A DNA stretch of 64,000 bases, taken from an uncultured Cohaesibacter sp. (GTDB lineage Bacteria > Pseudomonadota > Alphaproteobacteria > Rhizobiales > Cohaesibacteraceae). The stretch covers positions 3,799,501 to 3,863,500 of the forward strand of contig NZ_OY762934.1 in assembly GCF_963667045.1 (NCBI RefSeq), given 5' to 3'. The notes beneath the pieces were generated by a model. The model did no database searches. It was given only the letters and a program-made list of their open reading frames with translations, and was not told the origin of the DNA. This document shows, one piece after another, positions 28,293-51,551 of the stretch. Within the stretch, counting starts at the first letter, position 1. Every line of letters starts with the position of its first letter. The position numbers and the translations under genes were made by a program.

Positions 28293-28331
28293 CGATACGG
28301 TCCCAACCATAACTCTGGCAGAGGCAACAGC

Positions 28332-33485: not shown

Positions 33486-33506
33486 GGCTACCGGCCTTTG
33501 CTGTAA

Positions 33507-33744: not shown

Positions 33745-33780
33745 CAAATTGCGAGGAGGGTTTTGCGGGGCTCCAGCTTC
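33745..33780. mobile_element. Relic of an IS5-family inverted-repeat end
   Basis: AAATTGCGAGGAGGGTTTTGCGGGGCTCCAGC is nearly the same as the right end of the IS5-family element at 57777-57808 of this window. No transposase coding accompanies it, so it is a solo scar. The rest of 33557-33925 (about 370 bases) shows no gene I can support. Confidence 0.6.
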
Positions 33781-33925
33781 CAGAATTGCGGGCACCTTGG
33801 TGCTTTAAATAGTCTGTCGCTCACAATCGATCAGCAAGAGCATTTCGTTTGTCACGTGGTTGCGTTTTCGAGTATTGAACAGTTCAATGTAGTCGAAGAC
33901 GTTCTGTCTGGCAGGAGCCCTTATC

Positions 33926-35455: not shown

Positions 35456-36427
35456 CTAGGCTTTAATCAGGGCCTGAGCAAGGGCTTGATCAACGCAAAG
35501 ATGCGTTACGTAGCCACCGCGAATGGCCGCCAGCACCGCATTCTTGCGCCTGATGCTCCCGGCGATCAGCAATTTTTTGGGGACTCGCTGTAATGCGTCA
35601 AAATCTATCGCAATGAGTCGTTTATCGGGCGCAACGCGAACGGGCTCGCCTTCGGCATTGATATAGCGGCAACAGATCACTCCCACCGCTCCTGCCTTTC
35701 TTGCCGCTTCCAGCTCTTCAGGTGTCGTCATGTGTGCTCGAATCATATGGGTCTGGTCTTGCACATGACCGATGGAAGCAACATACATGTCCAGATCGTT
35801 GAGCTTTTCCAGTTGCTGCTTGATTGTTGGTTCATTCCGCAACAATTCTGCGATCTCGTCATTGGACCCGACAGCAGGCGCATGCAATGTCGAGCATTGT
35901 GCTGACAGCATATTGGCTATCTGGATTGCACAGCGTTCGGAGGCCGGAACAGTGTCTGATCTCATGGAGCCGATCATCTGCCGCACAATCACATCTTTCT
36001 TGTGGACCTTAGGCATTTGCTCGGATACCGTGAAAACGGTTTCGCCCCATGCAACCCCGAGTGTTTCTCCCGGCGCGATGATCTCAGCCAATGCAATAGC
36101 ACCAACGCGGCCCAATTGGTGCAGCATTTCATTTCTTGTAACTTTAGCTCCGTCGACACCACTGGTTGAGATGTAAACATCTGTTAGGCCATATTTCTCG
36201 CGCAAGTCCTGAGACAGAGACGATCCTGCAAGATATTTGCCATCAACCAGAATTTCGACCACACGATTTTCGCGTGCCTCACGCAGCATATTGACGACGG
36301 TGGCGCGTGAAACATTCATACGCTTCGCAATGTCGTTTTGGGTCAAACCCTCCCCATAATAGAGGAGGGCCACATTTGCGAGCGTTGATTCTTTGTTGAA
36401 ATATCGTGAGGTTTGGTCTTTGTCCAT
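35456..36427 (-). CDS. SorC-family sugar-binding transcriptional regulator
   Basis: A 323-residue protein. The N-terminal helix-turn-helix is at about residues 15-50 (LYYGEGLTQNDIAKRMNVSRATVVNMLREA), followed by a SorC-type phospho-sugar-binding domain (GVAWGETVF, HAPAVGSNDEIAELL, GVICCRYINAEG, IAIDFDALQRVPKKLLIAGS). Such regulators respond to phosphorylated sugars. It is the last gene of the kinase/dehydrogenase/aldolase operon, only 3 bases after the aldolase, and is the likely reader of the CANNTGTAAA motif found in two nearby divergent promoters. Confidence 0.93.
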   Translation of the reverse strand: MDKDQTSRYFNKESTLANVALLYYGEGLTQNDIAKRMNVSRATVVNMLREARENRVVEILVDGKYLAGSSLSQDLREKYGLTDVYISTSGVDGAKVTRNEMLHQLGRVGAIALAEIIAPGETLGVAWGETVFTVSEQMPKVHKKDVIVRQMIGSMRSDTVPASERCAIQIANMLSAQCSTLHAPAVGSNDEIAELLRNEPTIKQQLEKLNDLDMYVASIGHVQDQTHMIRAHMTTPEELEAARKAGAVGVICCRYINAEGEPVRVAPDKRLIAIDFDALQRVPKKLLIAGSIRRKNAVLAAIRGGYVTHLCVDQALAQALIKA

Positions 36428-36430
36428 AAT

Positions 36431-37096
36431 TTAGCTATTAACAGACTTCTGCCCTGCTTGGCCATAGTTCTTTCTGAACCATTCAAAGCAACGAACAATT
36501 TCTTCCTGTGGTAATTCTTCAACCTCACCGCGCAACATTGCCAGATGCGTGGTCATGGCCGCTTCCTCGAGATACATGGCCACGGACGTGGCTTCCGTCG
36601 CGGATTTGCCCATCGTGAAAACGCCATGGGCCTTGACCAGAGCCGCATAGCCGCCTTGGGCTGCCTCAAGGATGGCCTCGCCTGTATCCACTTCACCCGC
36701 AGTTGCGTATCGTGAGCAGGGCACATCGCGGCCAATCATGTGGGTAATTGGGGTGAGTACCGCTGGGATACGCTCCCCACGCGCAGCAAAGCTGGTCGCA
36801 TAGGGCGAATGGGTGTGCGTGATGCCGCCGATATCATCCCTGTTGCGATAGAGATAAAGATGAATGCCAGCATCAACCGATGGTTTCATTTCGCCCTCGA
36901 TGACGTTGCCGTCGATATCGATGACCACCATCGTGTCGGGTGTCAATTTCGCAAACTTCACGCCCGATGGCTTGATAACAATAAGCCCTGTCTCTTTGTC
37001 GCGGCCGGATACATTGCCCCCCGACCCGACGACAAGATTGTTGCGCGGTAGTTCGTGGTTCTGATCGCAGACTTCTTCTTTAAGTGCTTCAAGCAT
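36431..37096 (-). CDS. Class II aldolase/adducin family protein (fuculose-phosphate aldolase-like)
   Basis: A 221-residue enzyme of the AraD/FucA family. Features: NNLVVGSGGNVSGRD, IKPSGVKFAKL, the metal-binding THTHSPYATSFAARG and the later KAHGVFTMG histidine. Members cleave ketose-1-phosphates to DHAP and an aldehyde, epimerise ribulose-5-phosphate, or decarboxylate keto-acids. With an FGGY kinase in the same operon, aldol cleavage of a phosphorylated ketose is most likely. AAAGGAGG supports the start at 37096, which overlaps the dehydrogenase gene by 8 bases. Confidence 0.88.
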   Translation of the reverse strand: MLEALKEEVCDQNHELPRNNLVVGSGGNVSGRDKETGLIVIKPSGVKFAKLTPDTMVVIDIDGNVIEGEMKPSVDAGIHLYLYRNRDDIGGITHTHSPYATSFAARGERIPAVLTPITHMIGRDVPCSRYATAGEVDTGEAILEAAQGGYAALVKAHGVFTMGKSATEATSVAMYLEEAAMTTHLAMLRGEVEELPQEEIVRCFEWFRKNYGQAGQKSVNS

Positions 37097-38153
37097 CACT
37101 GGCCTCCTTTGGAATGCCGTGCGGGTAAACGAGAATTTTGAGGGATTTTTCGGCGTCGACCAACATGCGGAAAGCCTCGGCAGAGTCCGCGATGTCAAAC
37201 CGGTGGGAAATGGCTTCGCCAGCCATGATCCGCCCCGCTTCGAGCAATCGGATGTAACTGTAGGTGTCCGTATGGTCGGAGGAATAGCGCGAGGTGATGG
37301 TCACCTGATTGAAATAGGCCTTGTTGCCATCCTGCACCCAATCGGTATCCGGCGCGAGCGGTGCACCCAAATGCAGGCATCCGCCTTCTTCCACCAGACT
37401 ACCCGCAAGCGCCCAGGCCGGCGGGAAAGGCGCGATCACAATAACCGTATCTGCAAGGCGTCCATTGTTGAGTGCTCTAAGGGCTGCAACCGGATCACTC
37501 TCTGTTTTTGGGTTGATCGTGTGTGTCGCTCCAAAGCGTTTGGCCTGTTCAAGGCGCCAATCAGAGAAGTCCAGCGCAATCACCTTGCCTGCGCCAAATA
37601 ACGGGGCCATATGCACAAAGCCCTGTCCCATGAAGCCGGCCCCAACGACTGCCACTGTGTCGCCGGGCTGAATGTTGCACACTTTAAGGCCTGACATCAC
37701 ACAGGACCACGGCTCGATTGTCACCGCCGCTTCGGTTGAAATGCTGTCCGGCAGTTTGTGGGCATCCATCATCAGATGCTGAGCGGTAACGCGGTAATAT
37801 TCACAGACGCCGCCCGGATCGAGTCTGGTGGTTGAATAGAAAGGATCTCGCGTGAAATGGCCGCGCCGTGACCAATGGCTGTTCACACGCCCCACATGGT
37901 GATTGATGAACAGACGATCCCCGATCGCGAAGTCTGTCACATTGGCTCCCACTTCCACCACTTCGCCAATTGGCTCGTGTCCGAGCACCTTGGGCTTGGA
38001 TTTCTTGTACCAGGACATAGCCTCGCCGCCACACAATCCGCAGACCAATGTCTTGAGAAGAACCTCATCGGGTCCGATTTCCGGGATTGGCCGCTCTTCA
38101 AGGCGAATGTCGTCAATCGCGTAATAGACAGCGGCTTTCATCATGTTGCTCAT
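37089..38153 (-). CDS. Zinc-type alcohol (polyol) dehydrogenase
   Basis: A 354-residue medium-chain dehydrogenase: CGLCGGE in place of the usual CGxCGSD, GHEPIGEV, and the NAD-binding GAGFMGQG. The canonical structural-zinc cysteine cluster is missing; that region reads HHVGRVNSHWSRRGHFTRD, so the lobe differs from classical sorbitol dehydrogenases. The start at 38153 overlaps the kinase stop by 4 bases (ATGA). It probably oxidises a polyol or secondary sugar alcohol to the ketose used by the kinase and aldolase. Confidence 0.86.
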   Translation of the reverse strand: MSNMMKAAVYYAIDDIRLEERPIPEIGPDEVLLKTLVCGLCGGEAMSWYKKSKPKVLGHEPIGEVVEVGANVTDFAIGDRLFINHHVGRVNSHWSRRGHFTRDPFYSTTRLDPGGVCEYYRVTAQHLMMDAHKLPDSISTEAAVTIEPWSCVMSGLKVCNIQPGDTVAVVGAGFMGQGFVHMAPLFGAGKVIALDFSDWRLEQAKRFGATHTINPKTESDPVAALRALNNGRLADTVIVIAPFPPAWALAGSLVEEGGCLHLGAPLAPDTDWVQDGNKAYFNQVTITSRYSSDHTDTYSYIRLLEAGRIMAGEAISHRFDIADSAEAFRMLVDAEKSLKILVYPHGIPKEASDA

Positions 38154-39664
38154 AGTTCGTCTTTCATCTGTTTTAGCTGCTTTGACAGAAGTCGGGCATT
38201 TTCTGAGAGAAGCTTGTAGCGTTTGAAAATCTTGCAATAGGCTGCGTGTGCCTCAGCGTTCGGCTCATAGCGCTGGACTTTCTCTTCGCGCTTGACCAAG
38301 GACATGACGTCGCCCAGTCCTGCTGCAGCCGCTCCGATGCAGGCCGCCCCCCAAAGCCCCTGATCGGAGGCTTCAGAGACAACAATAGGCACGCCAATCA
38401 CATCGCTGATGATTTGACACCAAACGGGGTTTTTCGACCCTCCGCCAGTCAGTTGAACAGCTTCGCTCGGCAGGCCCCCTTCCATCTCAAAACAGTGACG
38501 CAGGCTCATTGCGCCTCCCTCCAAAACGGCTCGCCCCATGTCAGCTTTTGTGCTTCTTGAGGTTAAGCCTTGAAAGGAGGCGGTCACGTTAGGAGAGACG
38601 AAAGGGGCACGCTCACCATTCAAATAGGGCAGGAACGTTACGCCATTTGCGCCGACAGGAACTTTGGTCACAAGTTCATTGAGCTTGGCTGCCACCTCGC
38701 CGGGCGTATCGCCACCAAGGCTCAGTGGATGCAGTTCCGTAAACCAGTTAAACGCCGACGCTCCGGTTGTGGGCGCCAAAATTCTGATAATCACATCCGA
38801 TGTGGCGTGCAGCGCGCTGGCACCCACGGGCTGGTCATGTGTTTCAATATGATCTGTTAAAATGTTGACAACGGCCGTGGTACCCATGATCATCATGGTC
38901 TGTCCGGGTTGGTCCATCCCCATCCCGACGATCATCGCAGTAAGATCCAATGTCGGCGTGGAAACCGGCAAACCTTCCGGCAGACCTGTCAAGCGCGCGG
39001 TCTCGGCGGTCAAGGTGCCCAATGGCGTTGTTGCGCGTTGCGGCTCAAGCAGATGCTGCTGGATGTCAGCGCAGTCCAGAGCGTCAGCAACGTCGGAACT
39101 GTAAGTACGCGTAGAGAAATCAATGAACGGTATGGAAGCGTTCGAGAAATCGGTTCCTGCCTGACCGGTCAAGTTCAAACCGATCCAGTCGCCGCAGGTG
39201 AAAATCGTCGCAATTTTGCTGACGATTTCTGGTTCATTTTGCTTCAACCAGCGCCATAGCGCACCAGAAGTGCCAGGCCATAAGGACGTGTGGCAGGCCC
39301 GACCAACAGCTGCGGCTTTTCCAGATGTCGTGAGTTGTTCGACATCTACTGATGCGCGCGTGTCGTTCCAGAGCATAGCAGGCCCCACGGGCTTGCCTGT
39401 CTCATCAACGGCCCAAAGCCCATCGCCCTGAGCGCTGATACCCAGCGAGACAGGAACAAAGTCATTGATTTTGCTCGCAATGGATTTCAATGCGTCCAAA
39501 GCCACGGAAAGGACGGCATTCATGTCCTGCTCAGATTTGCCTTCGCGTCCTGTTACATCTGGTGCAGATTTCTCCACCATTGCCACTATCTGACCGGTCG
39601 AATCATACGCTGCGGCCTTGATCGAGGTTGTCCCAATATCAAGGCCAAGTCTCACAGCTGTCAT
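38150..39664 (-). CDS. FGGY-family carbohydrate kinase (xylulokinase-like)
   Basis: A 504-residue sugar kinase. The N-terminal ATP-grasping LGLDIGTTSIKAAAYD and the second-domain QLTGGGSKNPVWCQIISDVIG are family hallmarks. The start at 39664 is set by GGGAGGT and the natural MTAVRLGLDIG N-terminus; the longer open frame upstream runs through the promoter. It is the first gene of the operon, so it phosphorylates the imported ketose or polyol. It resembles xylulose/erythritol-type kinases; the exact substrate is unknown. Confidence 0.9.
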   Translation of the reverse strand: MTAVRLGLDIGTTSIKAAAYDSTGQIVAMVEKSAPDVTGREGKSEQDMNAVLSVALDALKSIASKINDFVPVSLGISAQGDGLWAVDETGKPVGPAMLWNDTRASVDVEQLTTSGKAAAVGRACHTSLWPGTSGALWRWLKQNEPEIVSKIATIFTCGDWIGLNLTGQAGTDFSNASIPFIDFSTRTYSSDVADALDCADIQQHLLEPQRATTPLGTLTAETARLTGLPEGLPVSTPTLDLTAMIVGMGMDQPGQTMMIMGTTAVVNILTDHIETHDQPVGASALHATSDVIIRILAPTTGASAFNWFTELHPLSLGGDTPGEVAAKLNELVTKVPVGANGVTFLPYLNGERAPFVSPNVTASFQGLTSRSTKADMGRAVLEGGAMSLRHCFEMEGGLPSEAVQLTGGGSKNPVWCQIISDVIGVPIVVSEASDQGLWGAACIGAAAAGLGDVMSLVKREEKVQRYEPNAEAHAAYCKIFKRYKLLSENARLLSKQLKQMKDEL

Positions 39665-39727
39665 ATAAATACCTCCCGGACAGCAAATTATCGAGTTCCT
39701 AGGTAATACAAATGACAAACAATCGAT

Positions 39728-39785
39728 CATATGTAAAGAAATAAGACAAAAAAATATTGACATGTGTAAAAAATTTTTACATGTG
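39728..39785. promoter_or_regulatory. Divergent kinase/ABC promoter with three CANNTGTAAA motifs
   Basis: CATATGTAAAG (39728-39738), CATGTGTAAAA (39761-39771) and, on the opposite strand, CACATGTAAAA (39775-39785). The last two face each other around an AATT core, making an almost perfect inverted repeat, and ACATGTGTA also occurs twice directly, 19 bases apart. A TTGACA lies at 39757. Candidate SorC operator region for both the kinase operon (left) and the ABC operon (right). Confidence 0.65.
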
Positions 39786-39878
39786 TATAGGGCAATGTAG
39801 TTCACTTTTAAGGCAGGGTCTAGCATCTGGGAGGTTGGAGGATGCTGCCTGAATTTAGAATCCGAAGGGGAGGATAGA

Positions 39879-40847
39879 ATGAAACTCAAGCTAGTCACTT
39901 TGGTATCTGCGGCAGCGATGCTGTTTGCAGGTTCCGCAAACGCTGAAGATTTGAGTCTTGCAGGAAAGCGCATCGGCATTGCCGTTGTCGGCACGCAGCA
40001 TTTCTGGGATCGTGAAGCGTTCAATGGCGCCGTTTCCACCGTCGAGAAACTCGGTGGTGAAGTTGTCCCGGTCGATGGTGGCCGCGACAATCAGGTGCAC
40101 GCCGACAATCACGACATTTTGCTCACCAACAAAGTGGATGCTGTCATCTCCATTCTGGGTGATGCGGCTGTAGAACCCAAATTCAAGGCCCTCACGGAAG
40201 CTGGTATTCCGGTCTTTACCGTTGATCACCCATCTCAATATTCGGTGAACAACACCACATCCGATAACTACTATATGGGAACGACCATCGGACGCTTCAT
40301 GGCGGATGCCATTGGTGGCAAGGGCAAGGTTGCTGTTTTCAATGCGTTCGAGAAATCTCTGCGCATTTGCGGCATCCGCGTAGGGCTGTGGAAGTATGTT
40401 CTTCAGGACTATCCGGAAATCGAAATCATTCAGCCAGAGCTCGCTGAAGCCTATGCAAATGCGCCTGAAGATGCGCGTAAGAAAACCCTTGATCTGCTGA
40501 GCCAATATCCAGAAGGCACACTTGATGTCATCCATGTTGGGTGTTGGGACCAGCCCGCCATTGGTGTGGTTCAGGCTCTTGAAGAAACCGGCCGGACCGA
40601 TGTTTTGGTAACCGCGCTGGATGGTGGCCCGGATACTCTGGAAATCATGGCCGAAGAAGGCAGCCCATTCGTTGCCAACGTTGCGCAGCAGCCAAACAAG
40701 ATTGGCGCAACCGCTGCGAAAAATGTTGCTCGTTACTTTGCTGGCGAAACCCTGCTTCCACAGACTTATGTCGACGTTGTTCCTATCAACGGACGGGAAG
40801 GTGCCAAGAAAGCTTACGAAGAACTGGGCTACGGTAAGATCGACTAA
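39879..40847 (+). CDS. Sugar ABC transporter substrate-binding protein (RbsB family)
   Basis: A 322-residue periplasmic binding protein with a signal peptide ending at about residue 23 (FAGSANAED). The body follows the ribose/galactose-binding type I fold: GKRIGIAVVGTQHFWDREAF, VDGGRDNQVHADN, DAVISILGDA, TALDGGPDTLEIM. First gene of the four-gene importer. The ligand is unknown, but the divergent kinase/aldolase operon points to a pentose, tetrose or polyol. Confidence 0.93.
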   Translation: MKLKLVTLVSAAAMLFAGSANAEDLSLAGKRIGIAVVGTQHFWDREAFNGAVSTVEKLGGEVVPVDGGRDNQVHADNHDILLTNKVDAVISILGDAAVEPKFKALTEAGIPVFTVDHPSQYSVNNTTSDNYYMGTTIGRFMADAIGGKGKVAVFNAFEKSLRICGIRVGLWKYVLQDYPEIEIIQPELAEAYANAPEDARKKTLDLLSQYPEGTLDVIHVGCWDQPAIGVVQALEETGRTDVLVTALDGGPDTLEIMAEEGSPFVANVAQQPNKIGATAAKNVARYFAGETLLPQTYVDVVPINGREGAKKAYEELGYGKID

Positions 40848-40931
40848 TCATCGTTCCTTCTTGACAAAAAATCGGTGGCTGATGCCTATCAGCTGCCGAT
40901 GACCAGAATATCCATATGGGAGGATTAGGTC

Positions 40932-42458
40932 GTGTCTGATTTCGCTCTTGAGATGCGAAACATCACCAAAGAATTTCCCGGTGTTCGCGCGCTTGATCAA
41001 GCGAGCTTGTCCATCAAGCCCGGTGAAATTCACGGTCTCGTCGGAGAAAATGGCGCCGGCAAATCTACAATCATCAAGGTTCTTGCCGGTGTCTATAAGC
41101 CCGAAGCGGGTCAAGTGGATGTTTTTGGCAAAGCCCTGCCACAGGGTTTTGACCCAACAGCTGTTCATGCTGCGGGTGTGCGTTTCATCCATCAGGAACT
41201 GCACTTGGTGCCGCATTTTACCGTTGCCGAATCCGTCTTCATGGCTCAGGAGAAGTTCGATTGGAAAGGACTGAAGTTCCCAGAGATGCGCAAGAAGACC
41301 GAAGATTTTCTTCGCGAGAAACTTGCGGTGACTATTTCCGGCAAGCGCTTGGTTCGGGATCTGAGCACTGCTGAACGCAAGCTCGTCCAGATTGCGCGCG
41401 CGCTGATTGATGATGAAGCCAGGATCGTTGTCTTTGATGAACCGACGGCACCGCTTGCGAGCGGCGAGGTCGAGACATTGATGAATGCGATTGCGCAGCT
41501 GAAAGCATCCGGGATTTCAATTCTTTATGTCTCCCACTATCTCGATGAGATTACCGACATTTGTGATCGCGTAACCGTCTTTCGTCAGGGCAAGAATGTC
41601 GCTGTCTTTGACGAGATTTCCAAGGCGAGCGGTCAAGAGCTGGTCTCTGCCATGGTTGGCCGCGATTTGGGCTCGCTTTATCCGGAAAGCAACAGAGTTC
41701 CGGGAAGTCCCGTGCTGGAATTGAAAGAATTCGGCGATGGTGACAACTTCCGAAACGTCAATCTGTGCGCCCACCGGGGACAGATTCTGGGAATTGCAGG
41801 CCTTATCGGCTCCGGCCGTCAGGAACTGATCGATTGCATCTATGGCCTCAGACGGGCCAATGAAGGCAAGATGTTCCTCAATGGCTCCCAGATTTCAATT
41901 CGCAACGCAGCGCAGGCTGTGAAAAATGGTGTCGTGCTGGTTCCGAGGGATCGCCGACAAGACGGCTTGGTTTTGCCTATGACCGTCACTGAAAATGTGA
42001 CATTGGCAACCTTGGACCAGGTTTCCTCTTTTGGTCTTGAAAACCGGACTTCGTCCAAGGCGTCGGCGCAAAAGCAGATCAAGGATCTGGACATCCGGAC
42101 GCCTTCTGCTGACACCGTGACGCGATTGCTCAGCGGTGGCAACCAGCAGAAGGTCGTTCTGGGCCGCTGGTTGGCCAAGGACGCAAAAGTATTCATTCTC
42201 GATGAGCCAACTGTCGGTGTCGATGTTGGGGCTCGCGTCGAGATTTACCAATTGATCGAGCAATTGGCAGCCAATGGAACAACAGTCATTGTGTCGTCTT
42301 CCGACCCGGCAGAACTGATCGGTATCTGTGATCGGATCGCTGTCTTGATGCGTGGTGAAATAACCCACGAGGTTGAAACAGAGAATTTGACGGTTGATCG
42401 GTTGGTTGCAATTACGACAGGCGCAGAAAAGAGGGAGGATCTCGCAAATGCAAGCTAA
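40932..42458 (+). CDS. Sugar ABC transporter ATP-binding protein (RbsA family)
   Basis: A 508-residue double ATPase. The first domain has Walker A GENGAGKST; its signature region is degenerate (DLSTAERKLV) with Walker B IVVFDEPTAPLASGE. The second domain has a changed Walker A (GLIGSGRQE), a canonical LSGGNQQKV and FILDEPTVGVDVGARVE. This asymmetry is normal for RbsA/XylG proteins. It energises import with the two permeases encoded next; its end overlaps the first permease gene by 11 bases. Confidence 0.94.
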   Translation: MSDFALEMRNITKEFPGVRALDQASLSIKPGEIHGLVGENGAGKSTIIKVLAGVYKPEAGQVDVFGKALPQGFDPTAVHAAGVRFIHQELHLVPHFTVAESVFMAQEKFDWKGLKFPEMRKKTEDFLREKLAVTISGKRLVRDLSTAERKLVQIARALIDDEARIVVFDEPTAPLASGEVETLMNAIAQLKASGISILYVSHYLDEITDICDRVTVFRQGKNVAVFDEISKASGQELVSAMVGRDLGSLYPESNRVPGSPVLELKEFGDGDNFRNVNLCAHRGQILGIAGLIGSGRQELIDCIYGLRRANEGKMFLNGSQISIRNAAQAVKNGVVLVPRDRRQDGLVLPMTVTENVTLATLDQVSSFGLENRTSSKASAQKQIKDLDIRTPSADTVTRLLSGGNQQKVVLGRWLAKDAKVFILDEPTVGVDVGARVEIYQLIEQLAANGTTVIVSSSDPAELIGICDRIAVLMRGEITHEVETENLTVDRLVAITTGAEKREDLANAS

Positions 42459-43425
42459 TGCGATCAGAGGAAGTATCCTCGGCGAGGTCATCGGTGCAGC
42501 GCCCGTAATGATCTTTGCGGTGCTTCTGATTTACATCGGAATGAATGCGCCAAACTTCTTGACGCTGATCAACCTCAAGCTGATCCTGATGCAGAGCCTG
42601 CCAATCGTACTGGTTTGCGTCGGCCTTTCGGCCGTTGTCATGGCTGGCGGCGATGATGCGGTCTCTGGCGGTATTGATCTTTCCATTCCTGCGACATGTG
42701 TTTTGTGCGCAGGGATCATAGCGAGCACGATTACGACTGGTACGCCGCTTATTCTGGCGGCACTCTATGCATTGGTCGCAGCCCTGATCATTGGATCAAT
42801 CAATGCGTTTCTTGTCACCCGCGTTGGCATGACCCCCCTGTTGACATCGCTGTCCATGTTTGTGGCCGTTGTCGGGGTGAACAAGGTTGTCACCCAAAGT
42901 CGCCGCATTAACGTCAACAACGAAACCATTCTCTCCTTGCGAGATGGAGCGGTGCTTGGCGTGCCTATCGGCATATGGGTTGTTGGCCTCGTCGTTTTGG
43001 TTGGCTATCAGTTGATGCACCGAACCAAGTGGGGGCTCAACATGCAGGCGGTTGGTGGAAGTCGGGATGCGGCAGAAATTTCTGGCCTCAACACCAATCG
43101 CCTGTTTGCCCAGTCCTTCATTATTGCAGCGGTCCTTGGGTTCATAACCAGCTTCTTTGTGATCGCCAGAGGCTCGGGTATTTCACCCGGCGTGCAAGAC
43201 AATCTGATGCTGGAAATGGTGCTGGCCACATTCCTGGGCGCTGCTTTCTCACCGCGCAGGGTCGTGACGATGTGGGGCGCTGTTCTGGGGGCGGTTCTTG
43301 TCGCTGCTATCTCCATCGGCTTCAAGTCGATGGGTGTGAATGTCTTCTGGACCGGCCTCATCAAAGGGTCAATGATCGTTGTTGTCGTTGCAATGGGAGC
43401 CATTTCCCAGAGGGTACAACGATGA
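42448..43425 (+). CDS. Sugar ABC transporter permease 1 (RbsC family)
   Basis: A 325-residue membrane protein with the SGGIDLSIP motif and EMVLATFLGAAFSPRR loop. The start at 42448 follows GGGAGG. It overlaps the next permease by 4 bases (ATGA), so two distinct permeases are co-translated, suggesting a heterodimeric channel rather than the usual RbsC homodimer. Confidence 0.93.
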   Translation: MQANAIRGSILGEVIGAAPVMIFAVLLIYIGMNAPNFLTLINLKLILMQSLPIVLVCVGLSAVVMAGGDDAVSGGIDLSIPATCVLCAGIIASTITTGTPLILAALYALVAALIIGSINAFLVTRVGMTPLLTSLSMFVAVVGVNKVVTQSRRINVNNETILSLRDGAVLGVPIGIWVVGLVVLVGYQLMHRTKWGLNMQAVGGSRDAAEISGLNTNRLFAQSFIIAAVLGFITSFFVIARGSGISPGVQDNLMLEMVLATFLGAAFSPRRVVTMWGAVLGAVLVAAISIGFKSMGVNVFWTGLIKGSMIVVVVAMGAISQRVQR

Positions 43426-44411
43426 GTATTTCTTCCATTCCGGGCAAGGGGAATAAAGTGAACTTTCCGAGTCTAAAAAGCACCTTTGTAAGATATGGCT
43501 TTGTTGTCGTCTTCGTGTGTTTCTTCCTGTTCTTTGCCGCATGGAACCCGGTGTTTGTGCAGGCACAGAACCTGACCAATATCTTTGAAGCATCATCGAT
43601 CTTGTTGATCCTGGCGCTGGGGATGACTTTGGTTGTTGCAACCGGCGGCATTGATCTTTCGGTCGGGATTGCCCTCGACTTCGGTGCGGCCTTCTCGGTG
43701 GTCGCCATGAAATCCTACGGGATGGACTGGTGGAGTGCTTCGATGATCGGCATTGCTGGCGGAAGCCTCGTGGGCATGTTGAACGCGGCGCTTGTTGTTG
43801 GATTGAAGATCAGTCCATTTTTGGCAACTCTGAGCACATTCTTCATCGGCTCGTCCGTTCAGCGTATTTTTACCAATGGTGGCGGCCCCATCTCTTACCG
43901 CAGGATGCCGATCGAATATCGCAATCTGGCGCAAGGCGAGATCTATGGGATTCCGACTGAAATTGTCATTGCAGCCGTGGTGGCGATTATCTACTTCATC
44001 ATTCTTGAACGGTCCATTTGGGGTCGACAGATCCATGCGATGGGCATGCAGAGATCAGCGTCCATCGTTGCCGGTCTACGCGTGAACAAGCTTCTGGTCA
44101 TATGCTTTGTAGCAGCGTCAGCCACATGCGCCATTGCGGGTTTGCTCGCTGCGTCCAATCTTAGAATGTTCACGCCACTGGCAGGCTTTGCCTATCTTCT
44201 CGACGCGATTGCTGCAGTCTTTATCGGCGCTGCCCTTCATCCACGCGGCAGGCCCAATATACCGGGCACTGTGGCTGGGGTGCTTTTCCTGGGAATGGTT
44301 GCCAATGGCCTGAATTTGATGGGGTTGAACTTCAACACCAAGGACGCCCTCTCTGGGATCATCCTTGTCTCGGCTCTTGCACTGGCCGTTGCACAAAGAA
44401 AGATGCGCTGA
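43422..44411 (+). CDS. Sugar ABC transporter permease 2 (RbsC family)
   Basis: A 329-residue polytopic protein with the TGGIDLSVG motif and a DAIAAVFIGAALHPRG loop; C-terminus NLMGLNFNTKDALSG is family-typical. It is only distantly similar to permease 1. Last gene of the importer operon, followed by a strong terminator. Confidence 0.93.
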   Translation: MSISSIPGKGNKVNFPSLKSTFVRYGFVVVFVCFFLFFAAWNPVFVQAQNLTNIFEASSILLILALGMTLVVATGGIDLSVGIALDFGAAFSVVAMKSYGMDWWSASMIGIAGGSLVGMLNAALVVGLKISPFLATLSTFFIGSSVQRIFTNGGGPISYRRMPIEYRNLAQGEIYGIPTEIVIAAVVAIIYFIILERSIWGRQIHAMGMQRSASIVAGLRVNKLLVICFVAASATCAIAGLLAASNLRMFTPLAGFAYLLDAIAAVFIGAALHPRGRPNIPGTVAGVLFLGMVANGLNLMGLNFNTKDALSGIILVSALALAVAQRKMR

Positions 44412-44476
44412 CAATCAAGAGATGGTGCGGCCTCTTGCTCTGCCTCGTTTGACCTACACCGCTTTTCTCCCAAAAC

Positions 44477-44510
44477 TAAACCCCCGGACATTGTTCGAGG
44501 GTTTTTTTTA
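44477..44510 (+). terminator. Rho-independent terminator of the ABC operon
   Basis: AAACCC…GGGTT stem followed by eight T residues, 66 bases after the last permease stop. On the opposite strand it would also lie just after the convergent molybdoenzyme gene. Confidence 0.75.
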
Positions 44511-44545
44511 AGGTTGATACCATTATCGAAATGGAAGACGTCGGT

Positions 44546-46810
44546 TCAGGCAGAAAGGATTGGCGGTTTGTCTATCGTCAAGGCAGGCAGCGCGCCTTGC
44601 CATTTTTCGACGCGTACCAATGCGGTATGAGCCATGTTCCCTTGGGAAAGACCGGAGCATCCCTTGTCCTTGGTCAGAACGTTCGGATTGCCGTGCACCT
44701 CTAGCGCAATGCCATTCACGATTTGAGGATCAAACCAGGCCCCCGTGGCAAGTGACACACAATCAGGACGGATATCATCGCAATATCTCAAGCCCGCAAG
44801 GCACGCGCCACGTTGATTGAATATCCGCACAATTGATCCGTTCTCCAAGCCTCTGGCGCTTGCTGTCTCGGAATGGATATAAGCTGGCTCTCTTCCCTCG
44901 ATCTTGTCGGCAAGCGCTTCAGACCCTCTGTCATTTTGTGAGTGAAGGCGTGTATCAGGCTGCCCTGATATCAAGTGGAGTTCGTCTTCTTCTGCACTCA
45001 ACAGGCTTTCACATGGCTCCAGCCAAGACGGATGGGGTGGGCAATCGGGAAGCGCCATGGCTTCAATTGCTTTATTGAAAAGCGTGATTTTGCCGCTCTC
45101 TGTTTTGAGGGGATGGGTTTCAGGATCGGCGACAAACGCCTCAAAAGCGATACGCTGGGTCGTAGAGTTTGGCACATCGAACCGCCCCCTTTCGCGGAAG
45201 GCCTCAAAGGAGGGAAGCTCAAACCCTTCTGTTATCGCCACGCGCTGACAATCGGTCCAGATTGTTTGTAGCCATCCGTCTTGATCGCGCCCTTCGGTAA
45301 ATTCTTCTGCGAATCCCAATTCCTTTGCCAGCAAGCTGAAAATCTCAAAGTCGCTCTTTGACTGCCCGAAGGGTTCAAAAAGCTGCGACATGAACAGCAA
45401 TGTGCTGTCACGCCGGTTGATCATGATATCTTCGCGTTCCAAAGGGGTAGAGGCCGGAAAAACAATGTCGGCTCTTCTCGCCGTTGCGGTCCAGCTATGA
45501 TCGTTGACAATAATCGTTTCCGGTTTGGCCCAGCCAGTTTCAAGTCTGTTCAGGTCCTGGTGGTGATGGAATGGATTGCCGCCAGCCCACCAGACGAGCT
45601 TGATGTCGGGATAGGTTCTGTCCTGCCCGTTATATTTGTAGGATCCACCCGGATGGAGCAGCATGTCCGCAATACGGGCCACCGGAATGTATTCGGAGAC
45701 GGGATTGCGGCCTTGTGAAACGGATGGCCATGATATCAAGCGGGTAGGGCGGCCCACTGGCGTGGTCGATCCATAGCCAAAAGCAAAGCCTGTTCCGGCT
45801 TTCCCGATCTGGCCTAGTGCACAGGCCAATGCGAGCCCCGCCCAAAGGGGTTGCTCGCCGTGATCGCCGCGTTGAATCCCCCAGGACATGGCGATCATGC
45901 TCTTCTTGGACGCAAGTTGCATGGCCAGCGTTCTGATCTGTGTGGCGGGCAGATCGCAAATGGAGGCAGCCCATTCCGGTGTCTTGGCTTGCCCGTCTTT
46001 GCCATGCCCCAGAATATAGCTTTTGAACGCGTCCCAACCGCTGGTGCAGCGCGCAAGGAAGTCTTCATCTGCCTTCCCTGTCTCAACAAGTACAAAGATC
46101 AAGGCGAGCAGCAAGGCCGTGTCCGTACCCGGTCGGATCGAAAGCCATTCAGATCCTTCAAGATCGCTTTTCTTTGGCGAGACATTGACCAATTGGACAT
46201 GCCGGTCTTGCAATGTCCTGAGCCAACCGGGGATTTCATGTTTGGACGTGCCTGCCGAGGCAATCTGGGCCGTTCGGCCTGAAATGCCGCCGAAAACGAG
46301 CAACAGCTCGCAATGATCCGCAACCAAAGGCAACGAGGTCATTTCATCCTGAAAGGCACGGTTGCTCAGGCCCAGTATGTGCGGAAACAGAACTTCAGCG
46401 GCTGCGTGGGAATAGGTTTCGCGGGCGCCCACAAACCCTCCGGTCATATTCAGGAACCGCCGCAACTGGCTCTGGGCATGGTGAAAGCGCCCGGCACTGG
46501 ACCATCCGTAGGACCCGCCGAAAATCGCGCCATTGCCATAGTCTTCCCTGATACGCCGCACTTCTCGCGCTGCGAGTGAGAGGGCCTGGTCCCAGCTGAC
46601 TTCGACATATTTGTCGTTGCAGCGATTTTTGCCGCCGTCACCCTCCAGCCAACCCGCGCGTATTGCGGGTTGGCGGATGCGGCTATTCTGATCGCGTGCA
46701 GCACTCTGCCAACCTTTCCCGATACGGGAGGGGGATGGGTCATCTGCAATAGGCCGCAAGCTCTTGTCGTCAATTTCATAGGCGCCCCAATGGGCTGCGG
46801 TATATTTCAT
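44546..46810 (-). CDS. Molybdopterin-guanine-dinucleotide oxidoreductase, BisC/TorA type, cytoplasmic
   Basis: A 754-residue DMSO-reductase-superfamily enzyme. It lacks both an N-terminal Fe-S cysteine motif and a Tat signal. GGSYGWSSAGRFHHAQSQLRRF matches BisC/TorA, and Ser in the following YSHAAAEV or SYGW region should ligate molybdenum. Later marks are RPGTDTALLLAL, WGIQRGDHGEQPLW, and the C-terminal KGCSGLSQGN. BisC relatives reduce biotin or methionine sulfoxide and N-oxides. It starts 3 bases after a Zn dehydrogenase gene, so the two form an operon divergent from transketolase. A sulfoxide/N-oxide reductase in a sugar regulon is unusual. Confidence 0.85.
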   Translation of the reverse strand: MKYTAAHWGAYEIDDKSLRPIADDPSPSRIGKGWQSAARDQNSRIRQPAIRAGWLEGDGGKNRCNDKYVEVSWDQALSLAAREVRRIREDYGNGAIFGGSYGWSSAGRFHHAQSQLRRFLNMTGGFVGARETYSHAAAEVLFPHILGLSNRAFQDEMTSLPLVADHCELLLVFGGISGRTAQIASAGTSKHEIPGWLRTLQDRHVQLVNVSPKKSDLEGSEWLSIRPGTDTALLLALIFVLVETGKADEDFLARCTSGWDAFKSYILGHGKDGQAKTPEWAASICDLPATQIRTLAMQLASKKSMIAMSWGIQRGDHGEQPLWAGLALACALGQIGKAGTGFAFGYGSTTPVGRPTRLISWPSVSQGRNPVSEYIPVARIADMLLHPGGSYKYNGQDRTYPDIKLVWWAGGNPFHHHQDLNRLETGWAKPETIIVNDHSWTATARRADIVFPASTPLEREDIMINRRDSTLLFMSQLFEPFGQSKSDFEIFSLLAKELGFAEEFTEGRDQDGWLQTIWTDCQRVAITEGFELPSFEAFRERGRFDVPNSTTQRIAFEAFVADPETHPLKTESGKITLFNKAIEAMALPDCPPHPSWLEPCESLLSAEEDELHLISGQPDTRLHSQNDRGSEALADKIEGREPAYIHSETASARGLENGSIVRIFNQRGACLAGLRYCDDIRPDCVSLATGAWFDPQIVNGIALEVHGNPNVLTKDKGCSGLSQGNMAHTALVRVEKWQGALPALTIDKPPILSA

Positions 46811-46813
46811 AGA

Positions 46814-47875
46814 TCACAAATGCAGATCAAGGATCACCTTGATTTGCACTTCCCCTGGGTTTGGTTTACGCGAAAGGGCGGTTTCAAATTCCTCGAGCGG
46901 ATAGCGATGGGTGATGCAGGCGTCACCATCAATCAGGCCACGTGCCATCAGATCCAGAGCCGTGGCATAGGTGAAGGGGGCGAGATGGCCACCAAGAATA
47001 TTCAACTCCTTGAACTCGCCGAATATGTTGAGATCGACATTTACCTTGTCCTTATAGACCCCAAAGACAACAATCGTGCCGCGCTTGCGGATCAGCTCCA
47101 GACCTCTGGTGAAGGCGGATGTCTGCCCTGATGCTTCCAGATAAACGTCGGCCCCGCGTCCCCCTGTCAGATCCCCAATCGCCTGATCCAGCTTCGGATC
47201 ATCGGGATGGAAAGCAAGATCGGCTCCGAGCGTTTTCGCCAGCGCGCGTTTAGCTTCTCCGGGATTGACCAGAATGAGTTTTCTAGGGGTTTTCAGGCGG
47301 GCTGCTTGCAGCATACCCATGCCGATCGGCCCTGCACCGGATACGATCACCACGTCCTGAAACTGGATGTTGGCCCGCTCCACGCCGTGGATTGCATTGG
47401 CCAGTGGCTCGGTAAAGCAAGCCGCGTCATTGGACAGACCATCGGGCACCTTGTGGACTACGCAATCGGCTGGATAGATCATGTAGTCCGCCCAAGCGCC
47501 ATTGAGCGTCGCACCAAGCACATCCATCTTGTCGCTAAGGTGATAGAGCCCGCGTTGGCGGAAATAATCATTCCCATAGGTGATGTTGAGCTCTGCGACG
47601 GCACGATCGCCGACTTTGACTGCGTGGCGCTCTCCGGCACCCTCTCCAAGTTCGACCACTGTACCGGTGAATTCGTGGCCCGGTATGAACGGGAATGGGA
47701 GCTCCCATGGAGCTGTGGCGTCATACATGGCGCGATCCGCAGCACATATGCCTGACGCATCAACTTGCACCAAAATCTCGCCCGGGCCGGGTTCGGGTAC
47801 CGGTTGTTTTGTAGTCAAGCGATGCTGGCCACCAAATCCGTGACACTGCACAGCGCGCATCATCTTCCCTGTCAT
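46814..47875 (-). CDS. Zinc-dependent medium-chain dehydrogenase
   Basis: A 353-residue MDR enzyme: CAADRAMY in place of CGxCxxD around the catalytic zinc (the Cys retained), GHEFTGTV, ACFTEPLANAIHGV and NAD-binding GAGPIGMG. The structural-zinc cysteine cluster typical of sorbitol dehydrogenase is absent. The start at 47875 follows GGAGG; the TTG 12 bases upstream is less likely. It may oxidise a C3-C5 sugar alcohol or reduce an aldehyde from the aldolase/transketolase steps. Shares a promoter region with transketolase. Confidence 0.86.
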   Translation of the reverse strand: MTGKMMRAVQCHGFGGQHRLTTKQPVPEPGPGEILVQVDASGICAADRAMYDATAPWELPFPFIPGHEFTGTVVELGEGAGERHAVKVGDRAVAELNITYGNDYFRQRGLYHLSDKMDVLGATLNGAWADYMIYPADCVVHKVPDGLSNDAACFTEPLANAIHGVERANIQFQDVVIVSGAGPIGMGMLQAARLKTPRKLILVNPGEAKRALAKTLGADLAFHPDDPKLDQAIGDLTGGRGADVYLEASGQTSAFTRGLELIRKRGTIVVFGVYKDKVNVDLNIFGEFKELNILGGHLAPFTYATALDLMARGLIDGDACITHRYPLEEFETALSRKPNPGEVQIKVILDLHL

Positions 47876-47935
47876 TTGTTCCTCCAAAGGCTATTTCTGA
47901 TTGATTTTTAGCTCGCACAAAAAATCCTTCTTGAT

Positions 47936-47970
47936 TTTTACATATGGATATAATATTGACAATTGTAAAA
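47936..47970. promoter_or_regulatory. Divergent dehydrogenase/transketolase promoter with two CANNTGTAAA motifs
   Basis: CATATGTAAAA on the minus strand (47936-47946) and CAATTGTAAAA on the plus strand (47960-47970), the same motif as in the kinase/ABC promoter. TATTGACANNTGTAAAA is shared base for base with 39754-39770 apart from the two middle positions. A TATAAT lies at 47949-47954. Confidence 0.65.
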
Positions 47971-47985
47971 TGAGAGGAGATTGCT

Positions 47986-48912
47986 ATGCGCAATGAAAAA
48001 ACGACAGAAGAGGTTGCTCTCGGTATTCGTCGTCGGGTGTTTGAGCACACGATGCGAAACAACGGGGGGTATCTGTCTCAGGCTTGTTCGGCCGCCGAGC
48101 AATTGGCTTGGTTGTATAACGAGCAGCTCAATCTGGGGGCACCAACGCTTCCAGCCATCCCGAAACCTTTTGCCGGCGTGCCGTCTGCTGACAATCCCGA
48201 TTATCACACGGGGGCGGGCTATAACGGCCCTGCGACACCGGAGTTTGATCGTCTCTTTATTGCGCCAGCCCATTACGCGCTGGTTGCCTATGCCACGTTG
48301 ATTGAGGTGGGGCGTATGGATGAAGAGGGCCTCAAGATGTTCAATCAGGATGGCTCCTCTGTCGAGATGATCGGTGCGGAGCATTCTCCGGGCATGGAAG
48401 TGCATAATGGCACGCTGGGGGTTGGTTTCTCCACCGCTGCCGGTCTTGCCTATGGCCGTCGCCTGAAGGGCGAAACCGGCAAGACATGGGTCTTCATGTC
48501 TGATGGCGAAGTGGAAGAAGGCCAGACCTGGGAAGCGGTGCAGGCCGCGCGTTTTCATCGCATCGACAATCTGTGCGCCATCATGGATGTGAATGAACAG
48601 CAATGCGATGGTGCCATGTCATCGGTGATGGAAGTGGGCGATATCCGCCAGAAATTCATCGATTTCGGTGCAGCATGTATTGAAGTGGATGGTCATGATC
48701 TTAACGCCATCCGTCAGGCATCCGAGGAACCCCATGAAGGACGTCCCCTGATCATCATGGCCCGGACCTCTCCGTTCAAAGCCATGAGTATTCTGGAAGA
48801 GCGGTTCCCACGTCTCCACTATGTGCGCTTCAAATCCGAAGAAGAGCGTGCCCGTTTCAACGTCTCGATTGCGGCAGACCTTGGTGTCGAGCCCGTCGAT
48901 TACAGCCATTAA
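47986..48912 (+). CDS. Transketolase, N-terminal (TPP-binding) subunit
   Basis: A 308-residue protein equal to the TPP-pyrophosphate-binding domain of transketolase. Features: GMEVHNGTLGVGFSTAAGLAYG, the thiamine-diphosphate/Mg motif VFMSDGEVEEGQTWEA…DVNEQQ. Split transketolases are common in archaea and some bacteria, often next to sugar catabolic genes, and transfer two-carbon units between ketoses and aldoses. GAGGAG precedes the start. The partner subunit follows after 12 bases. Confidence 0.93.
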   Translation: MRNEKTTEEVALGIRRRVFEHTMRNNGGYLSQACSAAEQLAWLYNEQLNLGAPTLPAIPKPFAGVPSADNPDYHTGAGYNGPATPEFDRLFIAPAHYALVAYATLIEVGRMDEEGLKMFNQDGSSVEMIGAEHSPGMEVHNGTLGVGFSTAAGLAYGRRLKGETGKTWVFMSDGEVEEGQTWEAVQAARFHRIDNLCAIMDVNEQQCDGAMSSVMEVGDIRQKFIDFGAACIEVDGHDLNAIRQASEEPHEGRPLIIMARTSPFKAMSILEERFPRLHYVRFKSEEERARFNVSIAADLGVEPVDYSH

Positions 48913-48924
48913 GGAGGCCTCATC

Positions 48925-49929
48925 ATGGTTGAAATGGTTAGTCGCCCCTATGCCCGCTCTTTCGAGAAATTCGCAGCCGGCAATCCCGATATTCTGTGTC
49001 TGTCCGCCGATCTGACCTCATCCTGCGAGGTTGACGGGTTCCGGGATCGGCATCCGGATCAGTTCCTGAGCCTTGGCATGGCCGAGCAGAATATGCTCAG
49101 CTTTGCCGGTGGACTGGGGCTTGCCGGGTTCCGTCCCTTCATTCACACCTTTGGCGTCTTCATGTATCGCCGCCCTTACGATCAGTTGATGGCCTCCATT
49201 GCCTACCCCCGCAGAAAAGTGCGGCTGATGGGCTTCCTGCCCGGCGTTACCACCCCCGGTGGGATGACCCATCAGTCGATCGAGGATATCTCGGTCATGC
49301 GCTCGATCCCCAATATGACCATATTGGAAACAGGCGATGCGACAGAGGTTGAATCGATTTGCGAGGCTGCCGACAGCATCGATGGACCGGTCTGGTGCCG
49401 GGTGCTGCGTGGCTCTGTGCCGCGTCTGTTCGATACCCCCATCAAGGTGGGTGAGATGCGTGTTTTGTCCGAAGGCGATGATATTCTGGTTGTCACCGCA
49501 GGCATCACCACCGAAGAAGCCATGCGGGCGCGCTCTGCGCTCAAGCAGGCCGGGCTTTCCATCCGCCATCTGCATCTGCACACCATCAAGCCGTTCGATG
49601 CCAAGGCATTGCTCGACCATATCGGTTCGGTCAAGCATGGGGTGATCACGCTGGAGAACCATGTCACCGAAGGCGGCATTGGCTCACTGGTTGCCGAGAC
49701 CATGGCGGATGCCGGTGTTGGCAAACGTCTCATTCGTCTGGGCCTCAAAGACACCTATGCCCATGGCGGATCACGGTCCTATCTGATGCGCTATTATGGT
49801 CTTGATGCCCTGGCACTCGTCAAGGGTATGGAAGATCTGATGGGGCAACAGTTTGGTATCACCGAAGACGACCTTGATACAGCCCGCGTCGAAGACGTCC
49901 ACTCCCTCGTCAAGGCGGAGGCACTCTGA
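48925..49929 (+). CDS. Transketolase, C-terminal subunit
   Basis: A 334-residue protein comprising the pyrimidine-binding and C-terminal domains of transketolase. Features: FLSLGMAEQNMLSFAGGLG with the catalytic Glu, FGVFMYRRPYDQLMASIAYP, GVTTPGGMTHQSIEDI and the C-terminal domain ITLENHVTEGGIGSLVAE. It works with the N-terminal subunit. AAGGAGG precedes its ATG. The pair may be a housekeeping paralogue dedicated to the pathway of the neighbouring kinase and aldolase. Confidence 0.93.
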   Translation: MVEMVSRPYARSFEKFAAGNPDILCLSADLTSSCEVDGFRDRHPDQFLSLGMAEQNMLSFAGGLGLAGFRPFIHTFGVFMYRRPYDQLMASIAYPRRKVRLMGFLPGVTTPGGMTHQSIEDISVMRSIPNMTILETGDATEVESICEAADSIDGPVWCRVLRGSVPRLFDTPIKVGEMRVLSEGDDILVVTAGITTEEAMRARSALKQAGLSIRHLHLHTIKPFDAKALLDHIGSVKHGVITLENHVTEGGIGSLVAETMADAGVGKRLIRLGLKDTYAHGGSRSYLMRYYGLDALALVKGMEDLMGQQFGITEDDLDTARVEDVHSLVKAEAL

Positions 49930-49981
49930 AGCCTCAGCGAAGAGGCTGCAAAGTGACAGGTTGCTACGTCAATTGAACCAT

Positions 49982-50012
49982 AAAAGCCCCGCCATGATGG
50001 CGGGGCTTTTAT
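49982..50012. terminator. Bidirectional terminator between transketolase and dmsC
   Basis: TAAAAGCCCCGCC-ATGAT-GGCGGGGCTTTTA: a perfect 12-13 bp stem with an A-run on one side and T-run on the other, 52 bases after the transketolase stop and 59 bases from the convergent dmsC stop. Confidence 0.9.
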
Positions 50013-51542: not shown

Positions 51543-51551
51543 GTTCAGACC

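Follow-up and report, generated by a model that had tools for sequence, protein, structure and literature searches.

The DNA analysed here is a window of 64,000 nucleotides (3799501-3863500) from the single-contig 5.24-Mb genome of an uncultured Cohaesibacter sp., and the subject is a block of catabolic genes at 35456..49929 arranged around two divergent promoters. At the first, an FGGY carbohydrate kinase, a Zn-dependent dehydrogenase (Zn dehydrogenase 1), a class II aldolase-family gene and a SorC-type regulator lie opposite a four-gene Rbs-type sugar importer; at the second, another Zn dehydrogenase and a BisC-type molybdoenzyme lie opposite the halves of a divergent two-subunit transketolase, TkA and TkB (together TkAB). 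Every gene listed by a first-pass annotation, made from the sequence alone, was recovered by open frames and family profiles, intact and in the divergent layout and orientation it gave; the molybdoenzyme is also probably cytoplasmic, as it had proposed, the BisC profile match beginning at residue 5 and leaving no room for a leader. We give an even chance to the reading that this SorC-controlled gene set breaks down a pentitol or pentulose with a terminal methyl-sulfur group, probably an S-oxide, and is thereby a second front end replacing MtnK, MtnA and a RuBisCO-like protein (RLP). Below, W denotes the window locus, L-numbers are loci and G-numbers genomes, G000 being that of the window.

Conserved gene set and shared operator

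The SorC regulator, aldolase-family gene, Zn dehydrogenase 1, FGGY kinase and TkAB recur jointly in 20 loci, and BisC is present in 19 of these. Seventeen were collected first (W, L150, L152, L034, L035, L036, L038, L039, L041, L061, L114, L115, L154, L158, L159, L167 and L169) and three came from a second sample (L217, L218, L219); the fetched stretch of L167, L218 and L219 shows only part of the core genes, and L150 (genome G013) is a near twin of the window locus. Loci were called FGGY-type when TkAB has the FGGY kinase, Zn dehydrogenase 1 or the aldolase-family gene nearby, singly or together (above 42% identity in the comparison of 17 with 17 loci given below). L037 and L166, whose contigs end ahead of the kinase genes, were left out, and L116, L120, L168, L175-L177, L229, L231 and L242 belong to neither type. 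Among named genomes, where the best 80 of at least 592 BisC relatives were retrieved, TkAB adjoins BisC in eight loci, seven of which also carry FGGY kinase, Zn dehydrogenase 1, the aldolase-family gene and SorC, while the contig of the eighth ends; the carriers are Roseobacter cerasinus, Sagittula marina, Roseitalea, two Boseongicola (one with a cut contig), Tateyamaria, Silicimonas and a Rhodobacteraceae. The cluster also lies on plasmids of Marinovum algicola and Paracoccus seriniphilus, and a megablast of the whole cluster against plasmids returned one record, covering tkAB alone.

A survey of 397 genomes from the window's order detected TkB (E <= 1e-80) in 27; the nine that encode the aldolase-family protein (E <= 1e-70) all belong to these 27 (hypergeometric 7.6e-12; 1.1e-10 without the window's own genome; 2e-5 by genus). 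The loci are related, such that these and the Fisher values below overstate independence, and some of the genomes are drafts or metagenome-assembled. A second order, sampled around Sagittula, had TkB in 32 of 390 genomes, with six FGGY-type loci, all carrying BisC (L217-L219 new; L034, L035 and L039 from the earlier search). A class-wide search found TkB in 3 of 385 genomes, the window's own included, and in the window's genus TkB occurs in 7 of 18 genomes, three FGGY-type and four MtnK/MtnA-type. A chance neighbourhood of genes is ruled out by this co-conservation. The first-pass annotation had itself proposed that its single-pathway idea would fall if the molybdoenzyme and transketolase were not co-conserved with the kinase and ABC genes; that check was run, and the idea survived it.

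The motif that the same annotation had seen at both divergent promoters, CAWNTGTAAA, has four copies in 64 kb (39728, 39761, 47937, 47960), none of them outside the two divergent gaps, which together span 321 bp. A full inverted pair of half-sites occurs once in the window against 0.00 in shuffles. A looser 12-mer with one mismatch gave three matches against 1.18 by chance, so that the weight of the motif rests on its position and conservation; a general promoter scan of the region was uninformative (10 found, 8.8 expected). The half-site stands upstream of TkA, BisC or Zn dehydrogenase 2, or of the FGGY kinase, sugar-binding protein or TauA gene, in 16 of 18 core loci scanned (missing in L167 and L169), and it also precedes a sulfonate-type importer in L039 and L115. 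Elsewhere in those 18 loci there are only two further matches (L114, L150), and 71 other BisC loci held 14 in 1.32 Mb. In the second order sample it precedes TkA in all three new FGGY-type loci (L217-L219) and in 0/23 MtnA-type loci, and the first motif survey found it in one (L156) of 17 loci of other types. SorC is the likely owner of this operator. Co-conservation and the common operator together bear out the one catabolic regulon first suggested from the window, which we now hold to be almost certain.

Table 1. Features of the regulon in the window, and of a variant gene in two relatives
Feature	Position	Strand	Evidence or remark
SorC/DeoR-type sugar-binding regulator, 323 aa	35456..36427	-	Pfam Sugar-bind 200 bits; adjoins other core genes in relatives
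Class II aldolase/epimerase family, AraD-like, 222 aa	36431..37099	-	best NCBIfam PRK06557 (L-ribulose-5-P 4-epimerase) 243.9 bits, cut-off 251
Zn-dependent MDR dehydrogenase 1, 351 aa	37089..38144	-	Pfam ADH_N + ADH_zinc_N
FGGY carbohydrate kinase, 501 aa, xylulokinase-like, altered sugar site	38150..39655	-	TIGR01312 279.6 bits, cut-off 380.25
Operator half-site CAWNTGTAAA	39728..39737	+	motif scan
Operator half-site CAWNTGTAAA	39761..39770	+	motif scan
Periplasmic sugar-binding protein, Rbs type, 322 aa	39879..40847	+	Peripla_BP_4
Sugar ABC ATPase, 508 aa	40932..42458	+	AraG-like 499.9 bits, under cut-off 689
ABC permease 1	42448..43425	+	open frame; conserved beside binding protein/ATPase
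ABC permease 2	43422..44411	+	open frame; conserved beside binding protein/ATPase
BisC-type molybdoenzyme, 754 aa	44546..46810	-	TIGR00509 822 bits, cut-off 1017.55
Zn-dependent MDR dehydrogenase 2	46814..47887	-	tdh-like 197.6 bits, cut-off 458
Operator half-site, left arm of inverted pair	47937..47946	-	motif scan
Operator half-site, right arm of inverted pair	47960..47969	+	motif scan
TkA, N-terminal half of divergent two-subunit transketolase	47986..48912	+	Transketolase_N
TkB, pyrimidine-binding + C-terminal half	48925..49929	+	Transket_pyr + Transketolase_C
Intrinsic terminator-like hairpin 3' of tkB	49980..50012	+	15-bp stem, 8 G-C pairs
Sulfatase-family protein, L115	14657-16201
Sulfatase-family protein, L114	15440-16972

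An altered transketolase among methylthioribose genes

Forty TkAB pairs were chosen from 68 aligned, most of the others being duplicates of places already represented, and compared with four transketolases of the window's own genome, with residue numbers that we take to be those of E. coli transketolase. His26 is Tyr in all 40 pairs, His100 is Met in 39 and Leu in one, His461 is Phe in 40 and Asp469 is Gly in 40; all four residues are present in 4/4 of the own-genome enzymes. Kept in 40/40 are His66, His473, Arg520 and Glu411, the glutamate of thiamine diphosphate (ThDP) enzymes, and two further positions are largely retained, Arg358 as 38 Arg and two Lys and Ser385 as 39 Ser and one Asn, while His261 falls in an alignment gap. 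Arg358, Ser385 and Arg520 presumably form the transketolase phosphate site. TkAB would then hold the phosphate end of its substrate and appears to have lost the reader of the donor's C1 hydroxyl. Donor binding in transketolase is assigned to H66, H100, G114 and H473, 1-deoxy-D-xylulose-5-phosphate (DXP) synthases have Phe at position 100, and the transketolase variants H100F and H100L gained activity with pyruvate, a donor lacking the C1 hydroxyl (PMC7661550); D469T alters acceptor use (PMC5073344). The best solved relative of both TkAB subunits is the split transketolase of Carboxydothermus hydrogenoformans (6yaj/6yak), which is likewise two-subunit but keeps His100 (PMC7661550), where TkAB has Met or Leu together with the further donor-site changes.

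Judged by its sequence, TkAB is no ordinary transketolase, a point absent from the first-pass annotation, the sugar-site residues being replaced in 40/40 pairs. A plain pentose phosphate transketolase is also disfavoured by the four full-length transketolases that score above cut-off in the window genome. That genome has a second two-subunit transketolase (G000:C1:2525747-2527248), nearer the ordinary ones (159.7 bits, against 59.7 for TkA).

The neighbours of TkAB elsewhere point to its substrate class, being genes for methylthioribose, which methionine metabolism yields as a by-product. TkAB was found in 59 of the 787 genomes sampled in two orders, and MtnA, the isomerase of methylthioribose-1-phosphate, adjoins it in 39, with MtnK also in 38 and RLP also in 38. 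Of the 27 TkB genomes in the first sample, 16 have MtnK and MtnA beside TkAB, RLP being present in 15 and the sixteenth contig being cut; the remainder comprise nine FGGY-type genomes (G773 spread over two contigs), one with BisC, RLP and TkAB together and MtnK/MtnA elsewhere in the genome (G693), and one of neither type (G036). L171, with a cut TkB, and L172, a repeat of L118, count in the 16 of 27 and are omitted from the 17-locus MtnK/MtnA set used below. The 32 TkB genomes of the second sample divide into 23 with MtnA and RLP (MtnK in 22), six FGGY-type, two with RLP only and one with neither. RLP is also found in four FGGY-type loci (L158, L159, L167, L169). Ponticoccus alexandrii has the order BMP-type importer, purine nucleoside phosphorylase, amidohydrolase, mtnA, BisC, TkA, TkB, RLP, and Shinella, Mariluticola and strain NT-25 have SorC, sugar importer, mtnK, mtnA, TkA, TkB, RLP, the RLP of NT-25 being labelled otherwise and located by tblastn. 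MtnA of L116 and MtnK of L151 score above curated cut-offs; the TkAB-linked RLPs match MtnW-type models, under cut-off.

In a tree of 41 TkAB pairs rooted on Vibrio, the deep branches are MtnA/RLP-type and the front-end type switches nine times by parsimony, and hence the same TkAB enzyme seems to have acquired the FGGY front end later, in repeated exchanges. Vibrio nigripulchritudo (L120, 10038-15673) has a distant TkAB (46-52%) with RLP and an FGGY kinase of another type. The main product of RuBisCO-like isomerases is 1-methylthio-D-xylulose-5-phosphate (PMC6302742, PMC5893883). It is probable that both front ends meet at one TkAB substrate, a shared 1-substituted xylulose-5-phosphate.

Front end, molybdoenzyme and proposed route

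MtnA was not found in G000 or G013 by protein search and TIGR00512, and neither MtnK nor a TkAB-linked RLP was found in these two genomes. TkAB of the window genome must therefore be fed by the dehydrogenase, the kinase and the aldolase-family enzyme. MtnA was found in five of seven genus genomes queried and was not found in five of seven other cluster-bearing genomes, some of them incomplete. The FGGY kinase departs from xylulokinases both in score (Table 1) and in motifs: in 15/15 aligned cluster copies QMHG has become QGDG and GGxGDN has Asp-Leu for Asp-Asn, and the loop around the catalytic Asp is altered.

BisC aligns along its length with dimethyl sulfoxide (DMSO) and trimethylamine N-oxide reductases (1eu1), with the catalytic Tyr, Trp and Ser conserved, which we take to be Tyr114, Trp116 and the molybdenum ligand Ser147; the Tyr-Gly-Trp and Tyr-Ser motifs are present in 20/20 TkAB-linked copies. 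It nevertheless scores under the TIGR00509 cut-off, as does its genus paralogue (809.5 bits). A 119-sequence tree with midpoint rooting puts 19 of the 20 TkAB-linked copies into a single 32-member clade (support 1.0) together with 13 unlinked copies, 11 of them genus paralogues and two others; the copy in the Ponticoccus MtnA/TkAB/RLP operon lies outside it, a second recruitment. The paralogue, 57-61% identical, occupies 11 places in genus genomes, the window's own included (L002/L186, L007-L016), and in L186 a SelO-type gene adjoins it. BisC adjoins TkAB in 16/17 FGGY-type against 0/17 MtnK/MtnA-type loci (Fisher 1.5e-8), and in the second sample in 6/6 FGGY-type, three of them from the earlier search, against 0/23 MtnA-type. 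Given the methylthio-linked partners, the simplest role for BisC would be reduction of a methylsulfinyl group. The idea that the import is a sugar or polyol bearing a sulfoxide, put forward in the first-pass annotation, fits with TkAB relatives adjoining methylthioribose genes and with BisC keeping the residues of S- and N-oxide reductases. The S-oxide of methylthioadenosine (MTA) has been measured in medium from cultures of a human cell line (PMC2219991).

The route that we propose would begin with uptake of a methylsulfinyl pentitol (or pentulose) by the Rbs-type importer, followed by reduction of methylsulfinyl to methylthio by the cytoplasmic BisC. Zn dehydrogenase 1 would then oxidise the carbon adjoining CH2-SCH3, giving 1-methylthio-L-ribulose (from 5-methylthio-D-ribitol, if the stereochemistry is as we suppose), the FGGY kinase would phosphorylate C5, and the AraD-like enzyme would invert C4 of 1-methylthio-L-ribulose-5-phosphate to give 1-methylthio-D-xylulose-5-phosphate. 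TkAB would finally cut C2-C3, releasing glyceraldehyde-3-phosphate and leaving a two-carbon methylthio fragment on ThDP. For the substrate as such, a methylthio or methylsulfinyl compound, the odds are about even. As to the fragment, TkAB may be a new ThDP-dependent, phosphoketolase-like methylthio-ketose lyase whose two-carbon intermediate expels methanethiol to leave acetyl-ThDP, the products being glyceraldehyde-3-phosphate, acetyl-phosphate (or acetate or acetyl-CoA) and CH3SH; this we offer tentatively, as a speculation that is rather doubtful.

Several observations weigh against the proposed route. The donor site of TkAB would also fit 5-deoxy sugars (X = H), and the parts assigned to His26 and His461 of transketolase and to the kinase motifs are presumptive. 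No methylthio- or methylsulfinyl-pentitol was found in a literature search. TkAB does not need BisC, as BisC is beside it in 0/17 and 0/23 MtnA-type loci; the BisC motifs recur in nearly all other BisC copies and single out no substrate; and G016 (L152, L197) has an otherwise complete cluster without BisC. A BisC-like reading frame in two overlapping pieces lies away from that cluster (G016:C21:64448-66692). The aldolase-family enzyme has His at position 120 in 14/14 copies where AraD has Asp120, and the cluster has no isomerase or glycosidase, leaving free aldoses and glycosides uncovered. Of the nine FGGY-type genomes in the order, only G000 and G013 lack MtnA; the other seven have it elsewhere, so the two routes can coexist, and the window genome's own best RLP match is a distant RuBisCO-family protein at 24%, partial (G000:C1:2763265-2764179). 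In L194-L196 an extra gene, a PfkB kinase by Pfam in L196 (5408-6352), stands between the aldolase-family gene and SorC, and the variant with sulfatase and sulfonate importer described below is not explained by a plain methylthio-pentitol.

Breakdown of a 5-deoxy-pentitol would have TkAB split 1-deoxy-xylulose-5-phosphate, the reverse of DXP synthase chemistry, with BisC engaged in repair of oxidised methionine or biotin. BisC-type enzymes do have repair roles. The His100 change of TkAB resembles DXP synthase (PMC7661550), and DrdK, a homologue of methylthioribose kinase, also takes 5-deoxyribose (PMC6079011); BisC, however, tracks the FGGY front end (16/17 against 0/17) and was recruited from two branches, which is odd for general repair, and we consider this reading unlikely. 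Ordinary pentose or pentitol catabolism, for example of L-ribulose or L-arabinitol to D-xylulose-5-phosphate, with the split transketolase as an auxiliary and BisC as a passenger, would suit the Rbs-type importer and the kinase, epimerase and dehydrogenase families, which are typical of pentitol routes. It is improbable all the same: TkAB lacks His26, His100, His461 and Asp469 in 40/40 pairs in a genome already holding four full-length transketolases, it stands elsewhere with MtnK, MtnA and RLP, and the sugar site of the kinase is changed too.

The aldolase-family enzyme bears on a further alternative, the route of the first-pass annotation, in which a kinase-made ketose-1-phosphate is cleaved by a class II aldolase to dihydroxyacetone phosphate (DHAP) and a (methylthio)aldehyde. 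The enzyme shares the zinc histidines with AraD and has AraD-type Asp76 and Thr116 in 14/14 aligned cluster copies, Asp and Thr replacing FucA-type Glu73 and Tyr113 (the latter number as we take it to be). It differs from AraD in His120, in having no adjoining sugar isomerase and in scoring just below the PRK06557 cut-off; it has a C-terminal Tyr-Gly-Gln, and the AraD sequence used stops at 206, short of Tyr229. The catalytic residues of AraD are Asp120 and Tyr229, with Asp76 as base in docking, and FucA cleavage uses Glu73 (PMC5434028). FucA-type class II aldolases (Glu, Tyr, Ala) do occur near MtnA in L151, L153 and L155. DHAP shunts of methylthioribulose-1-phosphate are known (PMC6302742, PMC5893883) and the enzyme belongs to the aldolase family, but the AraD-type residues disfavour a DHAP-forming aldolase, and such a route leaves TkAB without a role. 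We regard it as quite improbable, the C-C cleavage being better assigned to TkAB.

Variants, relation to known systems and meaning

The importer is exchanged among relatives. A sulfonate-type importer is found in L034, L039, L114, L115 and L217, with a diverged one in L061, and a sulfatase-family protein in L034, L041, L061, L114, L115 and L217, mostly with that importer. Among solved structures, the sulfatase-family proteins come closest to sulfatases and phosphonate monoester hydrolases; those of L034, L061 and L115 have a CMPAR motif, and the variant's binding protein is SsuA-like, under cut-off. The Rbs-type importer is thus interchangeable with a sulfonate-type importer plus sulfatase, which the first-pass annotation did not mention, and knowing what the sulfatase acts on might disclose the natural compound. 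In marine arsenosugars C5 of the ribose bears an oxidised group, and conjugates with sulfate and sulfonate occur. That the terminal group is another oxide for an enzyme of the DMSO reductase family, such as the dimethylarsinoyl of arsenosugars, with the sulfatase variant handling sulfate or sulfonate forms, would accommodate the sulfatase and SsuA/TauA-type importer of L034, L114, L115 and L217, but it is very improbable indeed: the cluster has no glycosidase, the context of TkAB is methylthio, and the gene tables of L114 and L115, incomplete and the only ones screened for arsenic genes, list none.

Zn dehydrogenase 1 is 72-86% identical across cluster relatives and the sugar-binding protein 76-86% in relatives with the same importer, near-identical L150 excepted in both. 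Zn dehydrogenase 2 is present in seven of 11 Rbs-importer loci (W, L150, L152, L035, L038, L218, L219) and not in the other four (L158, L159, L167, L169). The L194-L196 clusters also have RLP, and in L191 a homocysteine S-methyltransferase-family gene lies about 6 kb from BisC. The hairpin after tkB is the longest of 22 terminator-like sites in the region, where 15.2 are expected. Directly beyond it, at 50071-53966, lies a DmsABC-type membrane S-oxide reductase (DmsA 1114 bits, cut-off 777.7; DmsB 265.1, cut-off 214.1; and DmsC), which we rejected as a member of the system since, of the loci mapped, W and L150 alone have it next to the cluster. Mobile DNA borders the right side: 54902-62108 encodes transposases, integrases, a reverse transcriptase of the group II intron kind and a HipA-like protein, and GC is reduced at 54-56 kb of the window. 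Upstream, at 24439-35131, a TRAP transporter, a DUF2264 protein, a GH3 glycosidase, an SDR and a GH8-type gene suggest another carbohydrate locus.

Apulose-4-phosphate transketolase and the sulfo-TK route for sulfoquinovose use split transketolases; both were set aside, the neighbours here being MtnK, MtnA and RLP. The nearest described system is the MTA-isoprenoid shunt of Rhodospirillum rubrum and Rhodopseudomonas palustris (MtnP, MtnA, a DeepYkr RuBisCO-like 1,3-isomerase and a cupin methylsulfurylase); we suggest that it has the intermediate 1-methylthio-D-xylulose-5-phosphate in common with the cluster. TkAB relatives likewise adjoin MtnA and an RLP. In contrast, the window genome lacks MtnA, MtnK and such an RLP and has a dehydrogenase, a kinase and an epimerase-type enzyme instead, with TkAB proposed to stand in for the cupin and an S-oxide reductase added. 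DHAP shunts and 5-deoxyribose disposal (DrdK, DrdI, DrdA) also handle C5-modified pentoses with a kinase and the class II aldolase family, in some cases alongside a sugar transporter (PMC6079011), whereas the window has an FGGY kinase in place of MtnK or DrdK, no isomerase, an AraD-like enzyme, and a transketolase and molybdoenzyme besides. The annotators had known of no pathway with this gene set, and our literature search, with most subscription papers outside its reach, found no description of it or of TkAB. The cluster looks like a new variant of methylthio-pentose breakdown, not a known pathway.

What emerges is a divergent two-subunit transketolase family tied to methylthio-sugar metabolism, with a concrete candidate substrate class, a modified active site and front ends exchanged on the same enzyme. 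The fate of the RLP product becomes testable in organisms with an adjoining TkAB; were the lyase chemistry true, it would supply a further fate for that product, and the regulon would be the first dedicated methylsulfinyl-pentitol route and a hidden methanethiol source in marine relatives. More broadly, these findings suggest that Roseobacter-type and related bacteria draw carbon and sulfur from oxidised methylthio sugars, possibly giving off methanethiol.

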